From: Sandarakinorhabdus limnophila DSM 17366
GTDB taxonomy: Bacteria; Pseudomonadota; Alphaproteobacteria; Sphingomonadales; Sphingomonadaceae
DNA length: 64,000 nucleotides
Reading direction: 5' to 3'
NCBI RefSeq assembly: GCF_000420765.1
Contig: NZ_ATVO01000008.1
Coordinates: forward strand, 124,001-188,000
Below are positions 14,984-50,163 of this stretch, piece by piece. Position numbers and translations under genes: made by a program. The number at the start of each line of letters is the position of its first letter. Position 1 is the stretch's first letter. The notes under the pieces were generated by a model. The model was not told where the DNA came from and made no database searches. It worked only from the letters and a program-made list of their open reading frames with translations.

Positions 14984-16936
14984 ATGAGCATGCACCGCGT
15001 CACCCCAGAGGCCCTCGCAATCACCCGCACCACGGCGGAGCAGTATCATGCGCTTTACGCGCAGAGCCTCGCCGATCCCGATGGCTTCTGGCGCAACCAG
15101 ATCGGGCGGCTCGATTGGTACAAGGCGCCCACCATCATGGGCAACTGGTCGTGGGACCCGGTCGACATCAAGTGGTTCGAAGATGGCGTCATCAACGCCA
15201 GCTGGAACTGCCTCGATCGCTGGGCCGAAGCTGACCCCAAGCGCACTGCCATCATCTGGGAAGCCGACGATCCCAAGGCTGAAGGCCGCCGCATCAGCTA
15301 TGGCGAGTTGCGCGAAGAGGTGGCGCGCATGGCCAATGCACTGGTGGCGCTGGGTGTCGACAAGGGCGACTGCGTCACCATCTACATGCCGATGATCCCC
15401 GAAGCCGCGATGGCGATGCTGGCCTGTGCGCGCATCGGTGCCGTGCATTCGGTGGTGTTCGGCGGCTTCTCTGCCGAAAGCCTGGCCGGGCGCATCGAAG
15501 ACGCGCAAAGCCGCTTCATCATCACCGCCGACGAAGGCCGGCGTGGCGGCAAGCCCATTCCCTTGAAAGCCATCGCCGACCAAGCCTGCGATAAGGCCGA
15601 AGTCGCCGGCGTCAACGTCGAAGCCATGCTGGTCATCCGCCACACCGGCGGCCGAATCGCCATGGTGGAAGACCGCGACCATTGGTGGCACGACATCCGG
15701 ACCGACGTACCGGATAGCTGCACACCGGAGCCGATGAACGCCGAAGATCCGCTGTTCATCCTCTACACCAGCGGCTCCACCGGCAAGCCCAAGGGCGTGC
15801 TCCATTCCACCGCCGGCTATCTCCTGTGGGCCAATCTCACTTTTGAAACCGTGTTCGATTATCGCGCCGGCGAAACCTTCTGGTGCACGGCCGATGTCGG
15901 CTGGGTCACCGGCCACAGTTACATCGTCTATGGCCCGCTGTCCGCCGGCGCCACCGTGCTGATGTTCGAAGGCGTGCCGAGCTTCCCGGCCAACGACCGG
16001 TTCTGGCAGGTGATCGACAAGCATAAGGTCAACATCTTCTATACCGCCCCAACCGCCCTGCGCGCCATCATGCGCGACGGAGATGAACCGGTGAACCGTC
16101 ACGACCTGTCCAGCTTGCGGCTGCTCGGCACGGTTGGCGAACCGATCAATCCGGAGGCGTGGAACTGGTATCACCGCGTCGTCGGCAAGGGGAAGCTGCC
16201 GATCGTCGATACGTGGTGGCAGACCGAAACCGGCGGCGCGCTGATCACACCCCTGCCCGGCGCGACGCCGCTGAAGGCCGGCAGCGCGTCGTGGCCCTTC
16301 TTCGGGATCGAGCCGGCGCTGGTGGAGGCCGATGGCACCATCATCGCGTGGCAACCCGGCCAGGAAATCAGCGGCAACCTCGTGTTGCTGCGCAGTTGGC
16401 CCGGCCAGGCGCGCACGGTGTTCGGCGATCATGAACGCTTCACCCAAACCTATTTCACCACCTATCGCGGCCGCTATTTCACCGGCGACGGCGCGCGGCG
16501 CGATGCCGATGGCTATTGGTGGATCACCGGCCGCGTGGACGATGTGATCAATGTTTCCGGCCACCGCATGGGCACGGCCGAAGTCGAATCAGCGCTGGTT
16601 GCACACCCACACGTGGCCGAAGCAGCCGTGGTCGGTTTCCCGCACGACGTGAAGGGCCAGGGCATTTATGCCTATGTGACGCTCAACCTCGGCGTGGAAG
16701 CCAGCCCAGACCTGGTGGCCGCCCTGAAAGCCACTGTGCGCGCCGAGATCGGCGGCATCGCGATCCCCGACCATATCCACCTGACGCCGGCCCTGCCCAA
16801 GACCCGCAGCGGCAAGATCATGCGCCGCATCCTGCGCAAGATCGCCGAAAACGAGCATGGCAGCCTGGGCGACACCAGCACGCTGGCCGATCCGTCGGTC
16901 GTGGAAGCGCTGGTCGAAGGCCGCCTCAACCGCTGA
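14984..16936 (+). CDS. acs: Acetyl-CoA synthetase (AMP-forming)
   Basis: This 650-residue enzyme activates acetate to acetyl-CoA through acetyl-AMP. The P-loop is [13 protein letters not shown], the adenylation core is [11 protein letters not shown], and the C-terminal hinge and catalytic lysine sit in [15 protein letters not shown]. That lysine is the usual site of Pat/CobB acetylation control. The length and the Trp in the acetate pocket motif fit acetyl- rather than propionyl-CoA synthetase. It is divergent from tadA; the short 46-bp spacer leaves little room for both promoters. Confidence 0.95.
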
Positions 16937-17033: not shown

Positions 17034-19124
17034 ATGCGTTGCGCGTTGCTGCTGTCGTCGGCCCTATTGCTTGCCCTGCCCGTCGCAACGCAGGCCGAAA
17101 CGCTGGATGATGACGCCGGCACCATTGTGGTCACCGGCCAGCGGGAAGCCCCGTATCGTGCCGGCAGCATCAGTTCCGCCACCCGCACCGACACGCCGCT
17201 GCTCGATGTGCCGCAGGCCGTCACCGTGCTCACGAAGCAGCGGCTGGACGATCAGGCGATTCTGTCCGTGCAGGAGGCGCTGCGCTTCGTGCCGGGTGCT
17301 GTCGGCGCACAGGGCGAAGGCAATCGCGATCAGATCGTGCTGCGCGGCAACAACAGCACCGCCGATTTCTTCGTCGATGGTGTGCGCGACGACGTCCAGT
17401 ATTTCCGCGATTTCTACAATCTGGACCGGCTGGAGATCCTGCGCGGTGCCAACGCCATGATCTTCGGGCGCGGTGGTGGCGGCGGCGTCATCAACCGCGT
17501 CACCAAGACGCCCGATCTTGCCGCCCAGCTGATTGCCGCCGATGCCGCGGTCGATACGTGGGGCAGCTGGCGCGTCGCCGCCGATCTCAACCAGCCGCTG
17601 GCCACCGGCATCGCCGCCCGCCTCAATGGCTTTTATGAAGAAGCCAGCAATCACCGTGATTTCTATGGCCTGACGCGCTGGGCAGTGAACCCCACGCTCG
17701 GCCTTGATCTGGGCGGTCGCGGCAATCTGGTGCTGGGCTATGAACATGCCGCGGATGATCGCACGGCCGATCGCGGCATCCCCTCGCAGGCTGGCCGGCC
17801 GGCGCCGGTCTCGCGCAATCTCTTCGTGGGCGATCCGGCGCTCAATCGCAGCCGTGTGGATGTCGATGCGCTGTCGCTGGCCGCCGATTACCGCTTGGCC
17901 GACAGCCTCACCCTGCGCCACCGCACGCGCTGGGCCGATTACGACAAGGTCTACAGCAACGTCTATGCGGCCACGCCGCTGGCCGCCGATGGCCGCATCG
18001 GGGTGGATGCCTATGCCGACCCCACGCGCCGCCACAATCTGTTCAGCCAGACCGATTTGAACTGGAAGACCGCGATTGCCGGCACCCAGCACAATATCCT
18101 TGCCGGCTTCGAGCTCGGCCGCCAGGTGACGCGCAACCAGCGCATCAACGGCTTCTTCGATGGCATCATTCCGGGCGCCACGCGCGCCTTCGTCACCCTG
18201 GCCGACAGTGCCCGCCCGCCGCTGGCAACCTTCCGCGCCGGGCCGGGCAACCGCTCCATCCGCGCCCAGGCCGAGGTGGCCGCGCTGTTCGTGCAGGATC
18301 AGGTGAAGATCGGTGATCATGTCGAGCTGCTCGGCGGCCTGCGTTATGACCGTTTCGAACTTGCCGTGGACAATCTGTTCTCCGGCGCGCGCTTTGCCCG
18401 CGTTGATCACCTGTGGTCGCCCCGCTTGGGCCTGGTGGTAAAGCCGATGGCCACCGCCTCGCTCTATGCCAGCTTCAGCCGCTCGTACTTGCCGCAATCA
18501 GGCGACCAGTTCACCAGCCTTGATGCCAGCCTGGCCGCGCTGGAGCCTGAAGGCTTCCTCAACCGCGAAATCGGCGCCAAGTGGGACATCACGCCAACGC
18601 TCAACATCAACATCGCCGCCTATGTGCTCGAACGCACCAACACGCGCGCGCCCGGCGCCGTGGCCGGCACGGTCGAGCTTACCGGCCGCCAGCGCAGCCG
18701 CGGCATCGAGCTTGGCCTGGATGGCCAGATTGCCAAATGGTGGCAGGTGCAGGCCGGCCTTGCTGTGCAAAACGCCCGCATCACCAGCACCACCACCGCC
18801 GCACCCGCCGGCCGCCATGTGCCGCTGGTGCCGGAATTCCAGGCCAGCCTGTGGCAGCGCTTCCAGATAGCCGAGCCGGTGGCACTGGGCGTCGGCATCC
18901 TGCACCAGGGCGCCAGCTTCACCAGCATCAGCAACGCGGTGCGGTTGCCGGCCTATACGCGGGTGGATGGCGCCGTGTTCGTGACGCTGGCCAAGGGCGT
19001 CAGCGCGCAGCTCAATGTCGAAAACATCTTCAACAAAGGCTATTTCCCGACCGCGCACACCGACAACAATATCAGCACCGGTACACCGCGCACCGCCCGG
19101 CTGACGATCAGGACGAACTTCTGA
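17034..19124 (+). CDS. TonB-dependent siderophore receptor (outer membrane)
   Basis: This 696-residue protein has a signal peptide (about 1-21, ending ATQA), a TonB-box-like stretch (GTIVVTGQRE), a plug domain (DVPQAVTVLTKQRLDD, then DNRDQ-like segment NRDQIVLRGNNSTADFFVDG) and a 22-strand barrel ending in the aromatic RTNF. The plug is of the siderophore class (FhuA/Fiu-like), probably for a catecholate or hydroxamate. Fur-like operators upstream support iron regulation. The last 17 bp overlap a convergent acetyltransferase gene. Confidence 0.92.
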   Translation: MRCALLLSSALLLALPVATQAETLDDDAGTIVVTGQREAPYRAGSISSATRTDTPLLDVPQAVTVLTKQRLDDQAILSVQEALRFVPGAVGAQGEGNRDQIVLRGNNSTADFFVDGVRDDVQYFRDFYNLDRLEILRGANAMIFGRGGGGGVINRVTKTPDLAAQLIAADAAVDTWGSWRVAADLNQPLATGIAARLNGFYEEASNHRDFYGLTRWAVNPTLGLDLGGRGNLVLGYEHAADDRTADRGIPSQAGRPAPVSRNLFVGDPALNRSRVDVDALSLAADYRLADSLTLRHRTRWADYDKVYSNVYAATPLAADGRIGVDAYADPTRRHNLFSQTDLNWKTAIAGTQHNILAGFELGRQVTRNQRINGFFDGIIPGATRAFVTLADSARPPLATFRAGPGNRSIRAQAEVAALFVQDQVKIGDHVELLGGLRYDRFELAVDNLFSGARFARVDHLWSPRLGLVVKPMATASLYASFSRSYLPQSGDQFTSLDASLAALEPEGFLNREIGAKWDITPTLNINIAAYVLERTNTRAPGAVAGTVELTGRQRSRGIELGLDGQIAKWWQVQAGLAVQNARITSTTTAAPAGRHVPLVPEFQASLWQRFQIAEPVALGVGILHQGASFTSISNAVRLPAYTRVDGAVFVTLAKGVSAQLNVENIFNKGYFPTAHTDNNISTGTPRTARLTIRTNF

Positions 19125-19632
19125 GGCGTTCCCACAGGCCCACTGGTTCGGCCTTGTAGGTGGCTTCGCCAAAGATGCTGAAGCCGCAGCGGCGAGCGAC
19201 TGAGATGCTGGTGGCGTTGGCCGGGTTGATCATGGCGACAGTGCGATCGAAGCGCGTGTCGGCCCATTCCAGCGCACAAGCCACGGCCTCGCTGGCATAG
19301 CCTTGTCCCTGCGCTTCGGGATGAAAGGCCCAGGCCGCTTCCGGGCAACCAAAGGGTTCCACCCCGGTGCGCTCAGCGTGCAGGAAGCCGACATCGCCAA
19401 GGTGAATATCTTCCCCCGGCCGCGTGACGGCCCACATGCCATAACCCATCAACTGCCAGTGGCCGGCATAGCGCAGCAGGCGGTTCCAGCTGTCTTCCCG
19501 GTTGAACGGCTTGCCGCCAAAATGCGTCACCACCACCGGGTGCGACCACAGTGAGACCAGACGATCGAAATCCGCCATCCGGTGTGGACGCAGCAGCAGC
19601 CGTTCAGACGAGAGGACGGGACGTTCGGTCAT
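19108..19632 (-). CDS. GNAT N-acetyltransferase, RimJ/RimL-like
   Basis: This 174-residue protein has the GNAT layout of the Acetyltransf_3 branch: SERLLLRPHRMADFDRLVSLW at the start, HLGDVGFL, AWAFHPEAQGQGYASEAV (acetyl-CoA loop, Q/RxxGxG/A-like QGQGYA) and MINPANATSISVARRCGF. Such enzymes acetylate protein N-termini or small amines; the substrate is unknown. The start at 19632 (MTERPVLS) is preferred; two upstream methionines extend the frame. It overlaps the 3' end of the siderophore receptor by 17 bp. Confidence 0.85.
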   Translation of the reverse strand: MTERPVLSSERLLLRPHRMADFDRLVSLWSHPVVVTHFGGKPFNREDSWNRLLRYAGHWQLMGYGMWAVTRPGEDIHLGDVGFLHAERTGVEPFGCPEAAWAFHPEAQGQGYASEAVACALEWADTRFDRTVAMINPANATSISVARRCGFSIFGEATYKAEPVGLWERLRSSS

Positions 19633-19725: not shown

Positions 19726-20229
19726 GTGATCCGCCTTGCCCGCCCCACCGATCTGCCGCTGCTGCCTGCCATCGAAGCCTCGGCGGCGACGCTGTTTGCC
19801 GGCACCGCCATGGCGCATGTGGTGGATGGGCCGACGACGCCGGCAAAGGCGCTGGCAGCGGGTTTGAAAGAGCGCAGCCTGTGGGTGGCGACAGCGCCCC
19901 AGCCCTGCGGCTTCCTGCTGGCCGCTGCCACTGCGGGTTGGCTGCACATCCAGGAATTGTCGGTGGCGCGCGATGCTCAGGATCGCGGGCTGGGCGCAGC
20001 CCTGCTCCAGGCCGCGATTGCGGCCGCGCCCGCACTCCGCTGCGCGCGGCTGTCACTCACCACCGATCGCTGGCTGGCGTGGAACGCGCCCTTTTATGCC
20101 CGGCACGGCTTTGCCGAAGTGGCAGCCCACGATCCGGCCGTGCCCGAATGGCTGGCGGGACTGCCGGCGCACGCCGCTGCCGGCGGGCTTGATCCAGCGC
20201 GGCGCTGCATCATGGTGCGCAGCGCATGA
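19726..20229 (+). CDS. GNAT N-acetyltransferase
   Basis: This 167-residue protein starts at a GTG with IRLARPTDLPLLPAIEASAA and carries the acetyl-CoA-binding motif ARDAQDRGLGAALLQAA and a C-terminal NAPFYARHGF. The fold is clear but the substrate is not. The stop overlaps the next ATG by 4 bp, so it begins an operon with a phosphotransferase-family kinase and an acyl-CoA dehydrogenase. Confidence 0.85.
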   Translation: MIRLARPTDLPLLPAIEASAATLFAGTAMAHVVDGPTTPAKALAAGLKERSLWVATAPQPCGFLLAAATAGWLHIQELSVARDAQDRGLGAALLQAAIAAAPALRCARLSLTTDRWLAWNAPFYARHGFAEVAAHDPAVPEWLAGLPAHAAAGGLDPARRCIMVRSA

Positions 20230-21239
20230 CCGATCTGGAACATCTTGCCCTGTGGCTGCCGGCGCAGGGCCTCGCACTGGCACCCGGCGCGCGGCTGGAG
20301 CGACTGGGCGGCGGCATCGCCAACCGCAACGAAGGCGTGACATTGACCACCGGACGAGCTGTGTTGCGTCGGCCGCCGCCGGGACAACTGGCCGCCGGCG
20401 CCAGCGACATGGCCCGCGAAGCCAAGGTGCTGGCCGCACTCGCCCCCGTTTTCCCGTTGGTGCCGCGCCTGATCGCCTTTTGCGCTGACGAAGCGGTGCT
20501 GGGCACGAAATTCCAGCTGATCGAGCGGCGCGATGGCATGGCGATTGCCGGCACGTTGCCGCCGGAAGCCGGCGACGGCCTGGCGCTGGTGGAAACCACG
20601 TTGCTGGCCATGGCAGCGCTGCACGCGCTCGATCCGGCGGGGATCGGGCTGGGCGATCTCGGCAAGCCGGAAGGATTCTACGCCCGCCAGTTGAAGGGCT
20701 GGACCAGCCGTGCCGAGGCGGTGTGGCCCGATGGTTTGCCGGCCCACGTGGCCGCACTCATCACCGCACTGGCCGCCGCCGTCCCGCCCGAAGCCGGTAC
20801 GCCCGTCCTGCTGCACATGGATCTGAAGCCCGACAATCTGCTCGTCGATCCCGCCACCTGCCAGGCGCGCGCCATGATCGATTGGGACATGGCCACCCGC
20901 GGGCCCAGGGCTTTCGATCTTGCCGTGCTGCTGTCCTACTGGATCGAACCGGGTGATCCGGGTGACGTGAAGCCGCTGATGGCGGTGCCCTCGCTCACCC
21001 CTGGTTGGCCGGGCCGCACGGCGGTGGCATCACGCTATGCCGGCGTCAGCGGCCATGATGTGGGCGATCTCGTGTGGCCAACGGCCCTCGCCCGATTGCG
21101 GCTGGCGGTGGCTTGGATGCAGCTTTACCGAAAATGGCAGCGCGGCGAGATGGACGGCACGCGCTATGCAGACTTCGAGACACTGGCGCTGGCGATCATC
21201 GCCCACGCCGCAGACCAGTACCAGAAAGGCGCCTTGTGA
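20226..21239 (+). CDS. Phosphotransferase-family kinase (APH fold), ACAD10/11-kinase-like
   Basis: This 337-residue aminoglycoside-phosphotransferase-fold protein has the Brenner catalytic motif HMDLKPDNLLVD and the metal-binding IDWDMATRGPRAFDLAVLL. In human ACAD10/ACAD11 and in bacterial pairs such as LvaA with LvaC, an APH domain of this class phosphorylates a 4-hydroxyacyl-CoA. A partner acyl-CoA dehydrogenase then acts on the product. Here the dehydrogenase gene follows directly with a GTGA overlap, so the same role is likely. Antibiotic resistance is unlikely from context. Confidence 0.85.
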   Translation: MTDLEHLALWLPAQGLALAPGARLERLGGGIANRNEGVTLTTGRAVLRRPPPGQLAAGASDMAREAKVLAALAPVFPLVPRLIAFCADEAVLGTKFQLIERRDGMAIAGTLPPEAGDGLALVETTLLAMAALHALDPAGIGLGDLGKPEGFYARQLKGWTSRAEAVWPDGLPAHVAALITALAAAVPPEAGTPVLLHMDLKPDNLLVDPATCQARAMIDWDMATRGPRAFDLAVLLSYWIEPGDPGDVKPLMAVPSLTPGWPGRTAVASRYAGVSGHDVGDLVWPTALARLRLAVAWMQLYRKWQRGEMDGTRYADFETLALAIIAHAADQYQKGAL

Positions 21240-22438
21240 CCGATTTCACCCTGCCCGAAGCCACCAAGGCGCTGGCCCGCCGCACCCGCCAGTTCGTGAT
21301 CGACAAGATCATCCCGTTCGAACGCGATCCGCGCCTGACGCAGCACGGCCCCACCGACGATCTGCGCGCCGAACTGGTGGCGCTGGCCAAGGCCGAGGGC
21401 CTGCTCACCCCTCAAGCGCCGACCGAACTGGGCGGCATGGGCTTTGATCACGCGACGCAAGCCGCGGTGTTCGAAGCCGCCGGCTGGTCCACGCTTGGCC
21501 CGGTTGCGATGAACTGCGCCGCGCCGGACGAGGGCAACATGTATCTCCTCTCCCGCATCGCCCGGCCCGATCAGGTGAAGCAGTTCCTCGCCCCCATGGT
21601 CAGCGGCGAGCGCCGCAGCGTCTTCGCCATGACCGAGCCCGATGGCGCCGGCAGCGATCCCGGTCAGCTCAAGACCAAGGCGGTGTTCAACGGCAATGAT
21701 TACGAGATTTCCGGCCTGAAATGGCTGATCACCGGGGCAAACGGCGCCAAGACTTGGATCATCATGGCCAATGTCGAGCCCAACGCCCACGGGGCGCACG
21801 GCCCCACCCTGTTCCTGTGCGAAGGCGACACGCCCGGCATCCAGATCGAACGCGTGATGGATTCGATGGACCGCAACTATGTCGAAGGCCATTGCGTCGT
21901 GCGCTTCGAAGGGCTGCGCCTTGGCCCGTCGCACCTGTTGGGTGAGATCGGCTCGGCCTTCCGCTATGCCCAGATGCGCCTCGCGCCGGCGCGGCTCACC
22001 CACTGCATGCGCTGGCTGGGTGCGGCGGCGCGCTGCCAGCATATCGCGCTGGAACATGCCCGGGTGCGCACTGCCTTTGGCAAGCCGCTGCTCGCCCACC
22101 AGGGCGTCAATTTCATGCTGGCCGACAATGAAATCGCCCTGCACCAGGCCCGCCTCGCCATCCGCCACGTCGCCTGGCTGCTCGATAACGGCGTGCGCGC
22201 CCGCCATGAAAGCAGCATCGTGAAGGCCAGCGTGTCCGAAGACCTGTTCAAGGTCGCCGATCGCTGCGTGCAGATATTGGGCGGCATCGGCGTCACTTCG
22301 GAAACCGTCGTCGAAATGATCTTCCGCGACATGCGACCGTTCCGCCTCTACGACGGCCCGACCGAAGTGCACAAATTCGCCATCGCCACCCAGTTGGAAC
22401 GGCAGGGCAGCGCCTTCACCGATCCAGTGGGCTGGTGA
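21236..22438 (+). CDS. Acyl-CoA dehydrogenase, ACAD10/11-like
   Basis: This 400-residue FAD flavoenzyme starts at a GTG overlapping the kinase stop. Visible motifs are FAMTEPDGAGSDPGQLKTKA, WLITGANGAKTWIIMA, ARVRTAFGKPLLAHQGVN and QILGGIGVTSETVVEMIFRDMRPFRLYDGPTEVHK. The AMTEPDGAGSDP and RLYDGPTEVH forms are close to the ACAD10/11 group. Coupling to an APH-fold kinase suggests action on (phospho)4-hydroxyacyl-CoA rather than ordinary beta-oxidation substrates. Its stop abuts the HAD gene stop with no gap. Confidence 0.9.
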   Translation: MTDFTLPEATKALARRTRQFVIDKIIPFERDPRLTQHGPTDDLRAELVALAKAEGLLTPQAPTELGGMGFDHATQAAVFEAAGWSTLGPVAMNCAAPDEGNMYLLSRIARPDQVKQFLAPMVSGERRSVFAMTEPDGAGSDPGQLKTKAVFNGNDYEISGLKWLITGANGAKTWIIMANVEPNAHGAHGPTLFLCEGDTPGIQIERVMDSMDRNYVEGHCVVRFEGLRLGPSHLLGEIGSAFRYAQMRLAPARLTHCMRWLGAAARCQHIALEHARVRTAFGKPLLAHQGVNFMLADNEIALHQARLAIRHVAWLLDNGVRARHESSIVKASVSEDLFKVADRCVQILGGIGVTSETVVEMIFRDMRPFRLYDGPTEVHKFAIATQLERQGSAFTDPVGW

Positions 22439-23062
22439 TCAGAAGCGCAGGCCGGTCGCTGCCGCCAGATCGGCCAAGGCCTGCGCCTCACCCGTCACCT
22501 TGATCGCCGTCATGCCCAGCGCGGCGGCCGGCTTGCAGTTGATGCCGAGATCATCAAGGTAAACGCAGGCCGCCGGCGCCACGCCCAGCGCCTCGCACAT
22601 CATCAGGTAGATGCGCGGATCGGGCTTGCGCAGGCCAACCTTGGCACTCTCGATGACGTGGTGAAACTCGCCGAGGATATGCTTCACGCTCGGCCCCCAG
22701 CCGATATCCTCCTCGCTCGCCACATTGTTGGTGATGCAGCCGATCTTGAACGCCGCCTTGCACGCCCGCAGCGCCGCCACCATCCCCGGCCGCACATCGC
22801 CCGCCAGCAACGGCAGCACATCACCGCCCGGCACATCATGGCCCAGACTGATCGCTTCCGCCCGGAACGCCGCATCAAATTCGCCGGTGCTGATCTCGCT
22901 GCGCTCCAGCCGCGCCCAGGCGTTGGTATCGGGATTGGTGGCATTCACCGTGCGGATGAAGCCAGTCGGCAGGCCCCGTTGTGCCTCATAGAGCGCAAAC
23001 GCCTCGAACGGTGACGAGGTGATCACCCCGCCAAAATCGAAAATCACCGCCTGTATCGCCAT
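22439..23062 (-). CDS. HAD-IA family hydrolase, ACAD10 N-terminal-domain-like
   Basis: This 207-residue HAD hydrolase has motif I variant VIFDFGGVI (first Asp kept, second replaced by Gly), motif II ITNN, motif III in VGLRKPDPRIY and motif IV VYLDDLGIN. Because the second motif-I Asp is Gly, general-acid catalysis may be altered; this is the pattern of epoxide-hydrolase-N/ACAD10-like HADs. The ATG at 23062 follows an AAGGA box; the upstream ATG is rejected. The gene converges on the acyl-CoA dehydrogenase, supplying the third ACAD10 module in trans. Confidence 0.88.
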   Translation of the reverse strand: MAIQAVIFDFGGVITSSPFEAFALYEAQRGLPTGFIRTVNATNPDTNAWARLERSEISTGEFDAAFRAEAISLGHDVPGGDVLPLLAGDVRPGMVAALRACKAAFKIGCITNNVASEEDIGWGPSVKHILGEFHHVIESAKVGLRKPDPRIYLMMCEALGVAPAACVYLDDLGINCKPAAALGMTAIKVTGEAQALADLAAATGLRF

Positions 23063-40671: not shown

Positions 40672-42197
40672 CGCTTGAATCGATCGCGCAGTTCGAACTT
40701 CAGCACCTTGCCAGCCGGGTTGCGCGGCAGGGCGGTGACGATTTCCAGGCGGGTCGGCAGCTTGTAGCGGGCCAGACGCTCCGTCGCCCAGGCGCGCAGG
40801 GTTTCGAGATCGAGGCTGGTGCCAGGCTTCAGCGCGGCCACCGCGGTGACGCTTTCGCCCCATTTTTCATTGGGTTCGCCGAAGATCGCCACTTCAGCGA
40901 CGGCCGGGTGATCATAGAGCACGGCTTCCACCTCGGCGGGGTAGATGTTCTCGCCGCCGCTGATGATCATGTCTTTCAGTCGGTCGCAGATATAGAGGAA
41001 GCCGTCCTCATCCAGATAGCCGATGTCGCCGGAATGGAACCAGCCTTCGGCATCGATGGCCGCTGCGGTGGCTTCCGGCTTGTTCCAGTAACCGCGCATG
41101 ATGTTGGGGCCGCGCATGATGACTTCGCCGCGCTCGTTCGGTCCCAGCGGCGTGCGGCCATCCTCGGCCACGACACGCAGATCGACGAAGAACATCGGCT
41201 TGCCGGCCGAACCCAGCTTGGCCAACGCGAAATCAGGCCCAAGATAGGTACCCGACGGCGCGGTTTCGGTGAGGCCATAGCCCTGGTTCATCGGAATGCC
41301 GCGCGCGTTGTACAGCCGCAGCAACGGTTCGGGCACCGGCGCGCCGCCGCACATGATGACGCGCAAGGACGACAGATCGGCCGCTTCGAAATCCGGTTGC
41401 TGGGCGACAAACAGCAGCATCGCCGGCACCGCGAAGGTGGTGGTGACGCGGTACTCGCGCACATCAGCGATGAAGCGCGCCGGATCGAAGGCACGGTGCA
41501 GCACGACATGCCCGCCCTTCTGCCAGCAGCTCAAGGGTGTGACGTTGAGGCCGCCGATATGGAACAGCGGCGCCATCACCAGGCTCACGTCCTTTTCGGA
41601 CACATCGGCGCCCAGTGCGCCATTGATGTTGGCCCACCAGAAATTGCCGTGGGTGAGCATGGCGCCCTTGGGCCGGCCGGTGGTGCCCGATGTGTACATG
41701 ATCACCGCCACGTCATCCTCGGCGGTTTCCACCCGATCGGCTAGCGGGGCGGCATCGCCCACAAACTCCGTGATCGGCTGCCAACCATCGGCCGGCCCGT
41801 CGGCCGACAGGAAGCGCCGGCAACACAGGCGATCCCGTACGCTGTCGATCACCGGCCGGTGCGGGCCATCGACCACCAGCGTGTGCACGCCGGCATCGTT
41901 GATGATGTAATCAAGCTCCGGGCCCGTCAGGCGAAAGTTCAGCGGCACGAAGATGGCGCCAAGCCGCGCGGCGGCAAACAACAGATCGAAATAGAGCGGG
42001 TTGTTGAGGCCCAGATAGCCCACCCGGTCACCCCGGCAGATGCCGCCGGTCTTCAGCGCCGTGGCCAGCCGGTTCACGGCATCGCCCATCTCGCGATAGC
42101 TGCGGGTCGTGCCTTCGAAGGTGAGCGCCGGCCGGTCCGGCGTTTGCTGCACCCGCCGGCTGAACCAGCTGTTCAATCCGATATCGGCCTTGGTCAT
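40668..42197 (-). CDS. AMP-forming acyl-CoA ligase (fatty-acid/aryl type)
   Basis: This 509-residue ANL-superfamily enzyme has the P-loop VIMYTSGTTGRPKGAMLTHGN, the GYGLTETAP motif and the C-terminal lysine motif LPRNPAGKVLKFELR. It activates a carboxylate with ATP and CoA; medium/long-chain fatty acid or aromatic acid are both possible. The ATG at 42197 is chosen over a longer frame that lacks the usual N-terminus. Its stop shares TTAA with the helical-repeat gene. The adenine-deaminase-like gene is 50 bp upstream. Confidence 0.88.
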   Translation of the reverse strand: MTKADIGLNSWFSRRVQQTPDRPALTFEGTTRSYREMGDAVNRLATALKTGGICRGDRVGYLGLNNPLYFDLLFAAARLGAIFVPLNFRLTGPELDYIINDAGVHTLVVDGPHRPVIDSVRDRLCCRRFLSADGPADGWQPITEFVGDAAPLADRVETAEDDVAVIMYTSGTTGRPKGAMLTHGNFWWANINGALGADVSEKDVSLVMAPLFHIGGLNVTPLSCWQKGGHVVLHRAFDPARFIADVREYRVTTTFAVPAMLLFVAQQPDFEAADLSSLRVIMCGGAPVPEPLLRLYNARGIPMNQGYGLTETAPSGTYLGPDFALAKLGSAGKPMFFVDLRVVAEDGRTPLGPNERGEVIMRGPNIMRGYWNKPEATAAAIDAEGWFHSGDIGYLDEDGFLYICDRLKDMIISGGENIYPAEVEAVLYDHPAVAEVAIFGEPNEKWGESVTAVAALKPGTSLDLETLRAWATERLARYKLPTRLEIVTALPRNPAGKVLKFELRDRFKR

Positions 42198-48982: not shown

Positions 48983-50163
48983 CACAGCTTCCAAAGGCTG
49001 GCGAGATTGTTCTTCTGCATGTCGGACGATCCGCCCACGATCGGCATGCCGAGCAGATCGCGCACATGCCGTTCAATGTCGAACGCGTCCGACAGCGCAT
49101 AGGAACCGATCACCTGCTGACAGGCGAGCGCGATTTCCACTCCGACATCGGCCACGAACAATTTCGCCATGCTGGTTTCAGCACTGCAAGGCCGGCCCTC
49201 GTTTGCCAGCCACGCTGCGTGATAGAGCATATGCCGCGCCGCCTGCAGTTTCGTGCGCGCCACCACCAGCTTGTGGCGGATGGCCTGGTGCTGACTGATC
49301 GCCTTGCCGAATTGCACACGTTGCTGGGCGTAATCCCACGCTTCGTCCAGCGCGGCGCGGGCGATGCCGAAGGCGACGGCAGTGATTTCCAGCTTCTCCA
49401 CGTCAAGCGCGCGGCCGGCTAGCAGCTTCCAGCCCTGGTTCCACATCGCCGGCCCGCCGACAATGTTGACGGCCGGCACCCGCACGCTATCGAAATACAC
49501 ATCCTGGCTCGCCGTGTAGCGCAGGTTGGCGTGGTGGATGTCTTGCATCCGCACGCCCGGCGCGTTGGTGGGGATCAGCACGAAACTCAGGTTGCGATAG
49601 CGGTCTTCCGCGGGGCCGGAGCGCACCAGAGTATAGATGTAATTGCTCCAGTCTGCCCCCGTGCACCAGCGCTTGACGCCGTCGATGATCACCTCATCAC
49701 CCTCCAGCCGCGCGCGGGTGGTGACACTGGCGAGATCGCCGCCCACATCGGGTTCTGACAGGCCATAGGCAAAGAACAGTTCGCCTTTCGCCAGCCGGGG
49801 GAGAAATTCCGCCTTCTGCTCGGCGCTGCCGTTTTCCGAAAGGTTCATACCGCCATAGAAAGCGGTGTGGATATAGGGGCCGGCGAGGCAGGGCCCGACC
49901 TGCGCCAATTCCTCGATCACCGCGATGGCGGCGACCAGATCCTGCCCGGCCCCACCATAGGCCTCGGGCACGGTGAGCGCAGTCAGGCCCAGCTTGTTCA
50001 GCTCGGGATAGACGTCGCGCGGCCAGCGGTGATCGCGATCCCACTGGATGCGGGCGTCGCGCGGGGCGTGTTGCGCCACGAAACGGCGGATGGTGTCGCG
50101 CAACTGGCCGATATGTTCCGGCTCATCTGTGAAGGTGACGGGGGGCAGCGGCGGGGCCATCAT
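48982..50163 (-). CDS. Acyl-CoA dehydrogenase
   Basis: This 393-residue flavoenzyme has YGLSEPDVGGDLASVTTRA, the QRVQFGKAISQHQAIRHKL motif and an expected helical C-domain. The terminal VGGSSDMQKNNLASL is typical of CaiA/FadE-type enzymes. It introduces a trans-2,3 double bond into an acyl-CoA; the chain is unknown. It overlaps the enoyl-CoA hydratase gene by ATGA and the monooxygenase-like gene by one base, so the three form one operon. Confidence 0.9.
   Translation of the reverse strand: MMAPPLPPVTFTDEPEHIGQLRDTIRRFVAQHAPRDARIQWDRDHRWPRDVYPELNKLGLTALTVPEAYGGAGQDLVAAIAVIEELAQVGPCLAGPYIHTAFYGGMNLSENGSAEQKAEFLPRLAKGELFFAYGLSEPDVGGDLASVTTRARLEGDEVIIDGVKRWCTGADWSNYIYTLVRSGPAEDRYRNLSFVLIPTNAPGVRMQDIHHANLRYTASQDVYFDSVRVPAVNIVGGPAMWNQGWKLLAGRALDVEKLEITAVAFGIARAALDEAWDYAQQRVQFGKAISQHQAIRHKLVVARTKLQAARHMLYHAAWLANEGRPCSAETSMAKLFVADVGVEIALACQQVIGSYALSDAFDIERHVRDLLGMPIVGGSSDMQKNNLASLWKL

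Follow-up and report, generated by a model that had tools for sequence, protein, structure and literature searches.

Within a 64 kb stretch of the 2.6 Mb genome of Sandarakinorhabdus limnophila DSM 17366 (the window), a gene for a kinase of the APH fold and a gene for an acyl-coenzyme A (CoA) dehydrogenase overlap at a GTGA and probably constitute a two-gene operon that feeds 4-hydroxy acids into beta-oxidation, in which a dehydrogenase of the LvaC type is served by a kinase that belongs neither to the LvaA nor to the ACAD10/11 lineage, without LvaB. Judged from its proteins, the pair represents one more version of the kind known from the LvaA/B/C proteins of the Pseudomonas putida lva operon and from ACAD10/11, with an LvaC-type dehydrogenase, a non-LvaA kinase and no LvaB, and it is by analogy with these two systems that its chemistry and its class of substrate are proposed. 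A reading made from the DNA letters (the sequence-only reading) had already linked the pair, by way of LvaA/LvaC and of mammalian work, to the phosphorylation and isomerisation of 4-hydroxyacyl-CoA, and both the anatomy and the active-site residues of the pair are those of the 4-hydroxyacyl-CoA kinase and phosphate-eliminating dehydrogenase of LvaA/LvaC and ACAD10/11.

The dehydrogenase, which is 96% identical to its counterpart in S. oryzae, shares 56.6% of its residues (215/380) with a dehydrogenase encoded in an lva operon on a plasmid of P. aeruginosa. There, an annotated lvaB separates the APH kinase gene from the dehydrogenase gene, and genes for an SDR and an acyl-CoA synthetase come next. 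Mouse ACAD11 is 36.1% identical to the window protein and 39.2% identical to that of the plasmid operon. For the dehydrogenase domains of ACAD10/11 against LvaC, the available part of PMC11342911 gives 62% and 56%; the 39% obtained here, which disagrees with these figures, compares mouse ACAD11 with the plasmid LvaC rather than with that of strain KT2440. When plasmids were searched, identities ranged from about 50 to 70% with the window dehydrogenase as query and from 57 to 62% with the mouse ACAD11 domain, among the 40 matches listed for each, and among these the best places differed between the two queries. In a tree of 56 proteins, the window dehydrogenase belongs to a 41-row LvaC clade (support 100/98) and, inside it, to a subclade of 14 rows (100/100) that has Actinomycetota proteins among its members; the ACAD10/11 clade (10 rows, 100/100) holds mouse and human ACAD11 together with two other proteins of the same genome, at C6:264829 (contig and position; 63% identical to mouse ACAD11) and C10:115479 (53%). 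The locus had been labelled a split ACAD10/ACAD11 module, a label that the alignments and trees do not bear out, since they assign the dehydrogenase to the LvaC clade and the kinase to a lineage distinct from both LvaA and ACAD10/11.

The residues expected of a phosphate-eliminating enzyme are in place. In mouse ACAD11, the phosphate-binding cluster comprises R626, H634 and R637 and the catalytic residue is D753, according to the accessible text of PMC12440821; on the printed chain they are residues 625, 633, 636 and 752, an offset of one. They align with R248, H256, R259 and D373 of the window dehydrogenase, which are invariant across 21 aligned LvaC-type proteins. The Arg/His/Arg/Asp set is kept in 41/41 rows of the LvaC clade and 10/10 rows of the ACAD10/11 clade, and in none of four ordinary dehydrogenases of the same genome; a distant protein on contig C4 carries RHHD at the four positions. 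These residues lend good support to the proposal that a kinase and an atypical dehydrogenase act here on 4-hydroxyacyl-CoA.

The kinase belongs to a lineage of its own. In a tree of 56 rows, in which ACAD11 is the only mammalian reference, it lies in a clade of 23 rows (100/100), here termed K, separate from the LvaA clade (12 rows, 100/100); the remaining clades are an ACAD11-type one (7 rows, 100/99), to which the kinase at C4:58193 of this genome belongs, and one termed M (8 rows, 100/98), half of which are from Mycobacterium or Mycolicibacterium. An approximately unbiased (AU) test rejects the union of K with LvaA in one clade (p 0.009) and that of K with the ACAD11 type (p 0.008). The window kinase, 31% identical to LvaA over 226 aligned residues, retains the catalytic H/D/N/D. 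Moreover, the K kinases keep an arginine beside the alpha-C Glu (RE) and another in the RQ motif, both absent from 12/12 LvaA-type rows, and these two match the arginines modelled to hold CoA in ACAD11, of which R176 was matched with an offset of one and the other by the published description, where its number is 86 against a count of 83. The pair is thus like ACAD10/11 in domain types, in the catalytic cluster and in the RE and RQ arginines of the kinase, but differs from it in being unfused, two genes and not one chain, in its place outside the clade and in its 36% identity to mouse ACAD11, nearer kin of which stand elsewhere in the genome.

It might be supposed that the kinase is a small-molecule resistance enzyme, or an unrelated APH phosphotransferase, that lies by chance beside an ordinary acyl-CoA dehydrogenase, as its Pfam label is just APH and it bears a weak likeness to aminoglycoside kinases. 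This is very improbable: the NCBIfam resistance models score far under their cut-offs (25.4 against 520 and 20.5 against 450), the dehydrogenase has the Asp and the R/H/R cluster rather than the ordinary set, and the two genes recur together. The kinase-dehydrogenase pair is present in 23/24 genomes of the genus (G002 being included on the basis of a partial dehydrogenase where its contig ends) and in a single genome from each of three other genera, 26/148 relatives in total, a recurrence far beyond chance, and pairs with a K-lineage kinase occur in Actinomycetota and in other Pseudomonadota.

A profile search of genome contigs with the dehydrogenase alignment gave at least 594 stretches, at least 586 of which are relatives, and the best 80 named loci were analysed, a selection that makes the sample lean to near relatives. 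In the surrounding DNA, an APH-type kinase is present at 43 of these 80 LvaC-type loci, of lineage K at 20 (including five of the genus and near kin, L128-L132), M at 14 (including one weak match and one kinase 3.2 kb away), LvaA at seven and ACAD10-type at two. The K kinase is always upstream (20/20), ending no more than 152 bases from the dehydrogenase start or overlapping it. LvaB was found in the same DNA at 6/7 of the LvaA loci and at 0/73 of the others, hence at 0/20 of the K loci. Along the dehydrogenase tree, parsimony over the 32 labelled rows of 56 counts at least five changes of kinase lineage, an approximate number because it derives from a single tree, several forks of which have weak support, and from chosen rows, loci with no linked kinase being left out. 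Kinases of different descent have therefore come to serve the same dehydrogenase, and this speaks for a common reaction path. The LvaA/B/C and ACAD10/11 routes are thus parts of a wider family with a stable phosphate-eliminating dehydrogenase and a repeatedly exchanged kinase. According to the portion of PMC6692424 consulted, LvaB is required by P. putida for growth on levulinate; K-lineage pairs, which do without it, thus offer natural material for the study of the role of LvaB and for engineering levulinate or lactone pathways of a simpler make-up. No report of the K-lineage pairing was found in the literature, as judged from titles and the openings of abstracts, its absence there being unproven.

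In the proposed sequence of steps, the kinase would transfer the gamma phosphate of adenosine triphosphate (ATP) onto the 4-hydroxyl of a 4-hydroxyacyl-CoA; R248, H256 and R259 of the dehydrogenase would bind the resulting 4-phosphate, and D373 would take the alpha proton, with flavin adenine dinucleotide as a transient electron store; the dehydrogenase would then expel the phosphate and give a 2-enoyl-CoA. The HAD-family protein encoded next to the pair could clear phosphate esters that have stalled, a role proposed for the histidine phosphatase of another lva cluster. The likeness to the P. putida lva operon lies in the clade of the dehydrogenase, in its active-site residues and in the adjoining kinase gene, whereas the window differs in its non-LvaA kinase, in the want of any LvaA, LvaB or LvaD match and in having no adjacent LvaE.

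Several observations weigh against the reading of the pair as a route for 4-hydroxy acids. At E 1e-3, genes like those for LvaA, LvaB (DUF6285), LvaD, the histidine phosphatase and NUDIX gave no match in the 64 kb, the surroundings of the kinase included, and the only LvaE-like genes of the window, AMP-binding synthetases at 14984-16936 and 40683-42170 (the latter 32% identical to LvaE), are distant from the pair and uncoupled to it. At 37 of the best 80 loci, there is no kinase in the surrounding DNA, and therefore the dehydrogenase can exist apart from a linked kinase. The joining of the window subclade to ACAD10/11 costs 41.7 log-likelihood units but attains p 0.0546 in the AU test; the tree keeps the dehydrogenase firmly apart from ACAD10/11, whereas the test falls short of a formal rejection. 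Moreover, the fold of the kinase also resembles that of 25-hydroxysteroid kinase (25-HSK), an enzyme of ATP-driven dehydration of an alcohol that is not a CoA ester (template modelling (TM) score 0.75 by query). As an observation apart, all 21 Nocardia loci (L133-L139, L141-L146, L148-L150, L152, L156, L160, L172 and L173; 65-72% dehydrogenase identity) are among those with no kinase in the DNA around the locus, and therefore the partner lies elsewhere in Nocardia or the role of the dehydrogenase differs.

The resemblance to 25-HSK bears on a further explanation, in which the same two-step chemistry is applied to another alcohol, such as branched, isoprenoid or steroid-derived hydroxyacyl-CoAs. 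An AlphaFold2 model of the window kinase (predicted local distance difference test score 94.2) has, in a Foldseek search, 3dxp as its nearest predicted relative, followed by 25-HSK and Rv3168, with 25-HSK ranking second to fourth; neither 9o56, the nearest PDB chain by sequence, nor ACAD11 (8v3u/8v3v) is among the 50 matches listed. The 25-HSK of anaerobic cholesterol degraders (PDB 9fsg and 9ft5) shares the APH-type fold and, according to the available part of PMC8449060, serves the ATP-driven dehydration of a steroid alcohol, not of an acyl-CoA, via a phosphate ester. In addition, genes of the CaiB-type CoA-transferase, SDR and AMP-binding families accompany the pair at some K-lineage loci, and the change of kinase lineage while the dehydrogenase stays would fit an altered range of substrates. 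However, the likeness to 25-HSK is at fold level only (TM 0.74-0.75 by query and 0.67-0.69 by target, with 18-19% identity), both arginines that correspond to the CoA contacts of ACAD11 are retained in the kinase, and the 4-phosphate-binding residues are retained in the dehydrogenase. Another alcohol is thus a tentative alternative, and the phosphorylation and elimination of 4-hydroxyacyl-CoA is the preferred account of the pair.

The four genes that the sequence-only reading had placed here, a leading GNAT gene, the kinase, the dehydrogenase and a HAD gene, were all confirmed by family models and gene coordinates, as were the GTGA coupling of kinase and dehydrogenase and the contact of the HAD gene with the dehydrogenase stop, the HAD stop codon beginning on the opposite strand at the base directly after it. 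The GNAT and kinase genes overlap at an ATGA, and 93 bases separate the start of the leading GNAT gene from that of a second, divergent one. A scan for promoters found no promoter-like site, and a scan for terminators found one terminator-like site against 3.3 expected.

Features of the kinase-dehydrogenase locus and of related loci (window positions unless a contig or locus is named)
Feature	Position	Strand	Remarks
GNAT acetyltransferase	19726-20229	+	GTG start; PF00583 2.2e-10; optional neighbour
APH-fold kinase, K lineage	20226-21239	+	PF01636 APH 6.4e-42; putative 4-hydroxyacyl-CoA kinase without LvaB
Acyl-CoA dehydrogenase, LvaC clade	21236-22438	+	PF00441, PF02770, PF02771, best 1.9e-37; GTG start
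HAD-family protein, convergent	22439-23062	-	TIGR02247, 218.6 bits (cut-off 125.4)
Second GNAT (Acetyltransf_3), divergent	19108-19632	-	PF13302 3.9e-28
NUDIX hydrolase, example	L130 7181-7723
DUF6285 gene and kinase on contig C3	G000:C3:307707-309.0 kb (L104 8669-9043; 9040-~10030)	-

The HAD and GNAT genes are local neighbours of the pair and not members of a conserved set. A survey of sphingomonads for the four-gene set had been proposed; the order GNAT-kinase-dehydrogenase-HAD is found in 6/24 genomes of the genus (G000, G010, G011, G014, G020 and G022; in G001 and G002 the contigs end and the order cannot be judged), the HAD and GNAT genes being neighbours in part of the genus. The leading GNAT gene precedes the kinase at 12/21 evaluable loci of the genus and at 1/3 loci of other genera and was rejected as a conserved member. 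Within the genus, no neighbour of the kinase is as constant as the divergent GNAT gene (21/21 evaluable loci), which reflects genus synteny, since it is found at 0/3 loci of other genera. The HAD gene adjoins the dehydrogenase in 9/24 genomes of the genus (G000, G001, G002, G004, G010, G011, G014, G020 and G022), at about 150 bases in G010 and about 10 or fewer in the other eight, and was likewise rejected as a conserved member of the module. It lies 2.5 kb from the pair in G017 and elsewhere in 12 genomes, in some of them on other contigs of draft assemblies, among diverse neighbours; no match to it was obtained in 2/24 genomes of the genus or in the DNA around the 75 named loci L133-L207.

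The presence of the HAD gene in a genome, adjacent or not, does follow that of the pair. Homologues are found in 28/148 relatives, in 24 of them together with the pair, that is, in 24/26 pair-bearing genomes against 4/122 others (Fisher p 2e-21 over the 148 genomes, a value inflated by shared ancestry and dominated by one genus). Counted by genus, the HAD gene is present in 3/4 pair genera against 7/94 overall (hypergeometric 0.001) and, outside Sandarakinorhabdus, in 2/3 pair genera against 6/93 (0.01), both figures ignoring phylogeny. Its best solved relatives are soluble epoxide hydrolases. Motif I reads D9-F-G11, Gly standing in place of the second Asp of DxD, and the site is kept, since none of D9, G11, T111, K146, D170 and D171 varies among 22 sequences of seven genera. 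As there are active phosphatases among DxG relatives, YihX for instance, the DxG motif does not decide on phosphatase activity. The TIGR02247 model, whose members include the N-terminal domain of soluble epoxide hydrolases and presumably the HAD domain of ACAD10, covers the window protein as well, which differs in being free-standing and in its Asp to Gly replacement. The protein is a lineage-specific neighbour of the pair, possibly a phosphatase or a regulator.

A true split ACAD10, in which the kinase, dehydrogenase and HAD genes are orthologues of the three domains of ACAD10 and cooperate, with the HAD protein restraining the kinase, would account for three domain types standing side by side and for the co-occurrence just described. 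Moreover, the HAD domain of ACAD10 has an incomplete DxD, shows negligible phosphatase activity and restrains the kinase, according to the accessible part of PMC11342911, and the window protein, a TIGR02247 member that keeps the first Asp only, is like it in this respect. So far the earlier view of the HAD gene as the ACAD10 part stands; it does not stand for the arrangement, the gene being on the opposite strand, adjacent in fewer than half of the genomes of the genus and with no match around L133-L207. In addition, the co-occurrence is dominated by one genus, both the kinase and the dehydrogenase lie outside the ACAD10/11 clades (AU p 0.008 and 0.0546, respectively), and in 11 other genomes of the genus and in three other genera it is a NUDIX gene that trails the dehydrogenase. 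A split ACAD10 is therefore decidedly unlikely, and the HAD gene is best regarded as a local neighbour of the LvaC-type pair.

This NUDIX gene (PF00293, 8e-12) overlaps or closely trails the dehydrogenase in those 11 genomes and in G026, G052 and G060. In the half of the genus to which the window belongs, 12 genomes, a search for it at E 1e-15 gave no match. A functional swap of HAD for NUDIX is suggestive and is not claimed, as NUDIX homologues are also found in relatives that have no pair, such as G006 and G025, and in 3 of the 12 genomes with no NUDIX match (G008, G009 and G015) the HAD gene is not adjacent either. A rather speculative proposal, and an improbable one, is that the free-standing HAD protein is a trans-acting counterpart of the regulatory HAD of ACAD10 that limits 4-phosphoacyl-CoA, by restraint of the kinase or by clearance of its product, and that it has come to adjoin the pair in most of those genomes of the genus that gave no NUDIX match. 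Phosphatases recur in the vicinity of kinases of this sort: the lva clusters of Stutzerimonas and Azoarcus include a histidine phosphatase gene in the module, as do L189, L195 and L200 and an ACAD10/11-type module of Deinococcus; for that of P. citronellolis, the part of PMC6692424 consulted suggests that it may strip phosphate from the intermediate.

On the upstream side, an acetyl-CoA synthetase-type gene (the AMP-binding gene at 14984-16936) and a TonB-dependent receptor gene (17034-19124) are on the same strand as the pair and are separated from it by the divergent GNAT gene. A second acyl-CoA dehydrogenase match in the window, of the ordinary kind, is on the minus strand at 48997-50121.

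This one small genome holds three sets, the LvaC-type pair, parts of the ACAD10/11 type and a distant LvaA-like kinase with DUF6285, and is thus a good place to study the division of substrates among them. The two dehydrogenases nearer to ACAD11 are on contigs C6 and C10, and the ACAD11-type kinase at C4:58193 adjoins a phosphoribosylglycinamide synthetase gene. On contig C3, a DUF6285 gene (PF19802), the sole DUF6285 match of the genome, overlaps the end of a kinase that groups with LvaA on a long branch (30% identity over 308 residues), and no match to an LvaC-type dehydrogenase was obtained in the 18 kb around them. A DUF6285 match is present in 24/24 genomes of the genus, including G006, which has no pair of the window type. 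By eye, the C3 pair lies near genes resembling those for a cytochrome P450 and an alpha/beta hydrolase.

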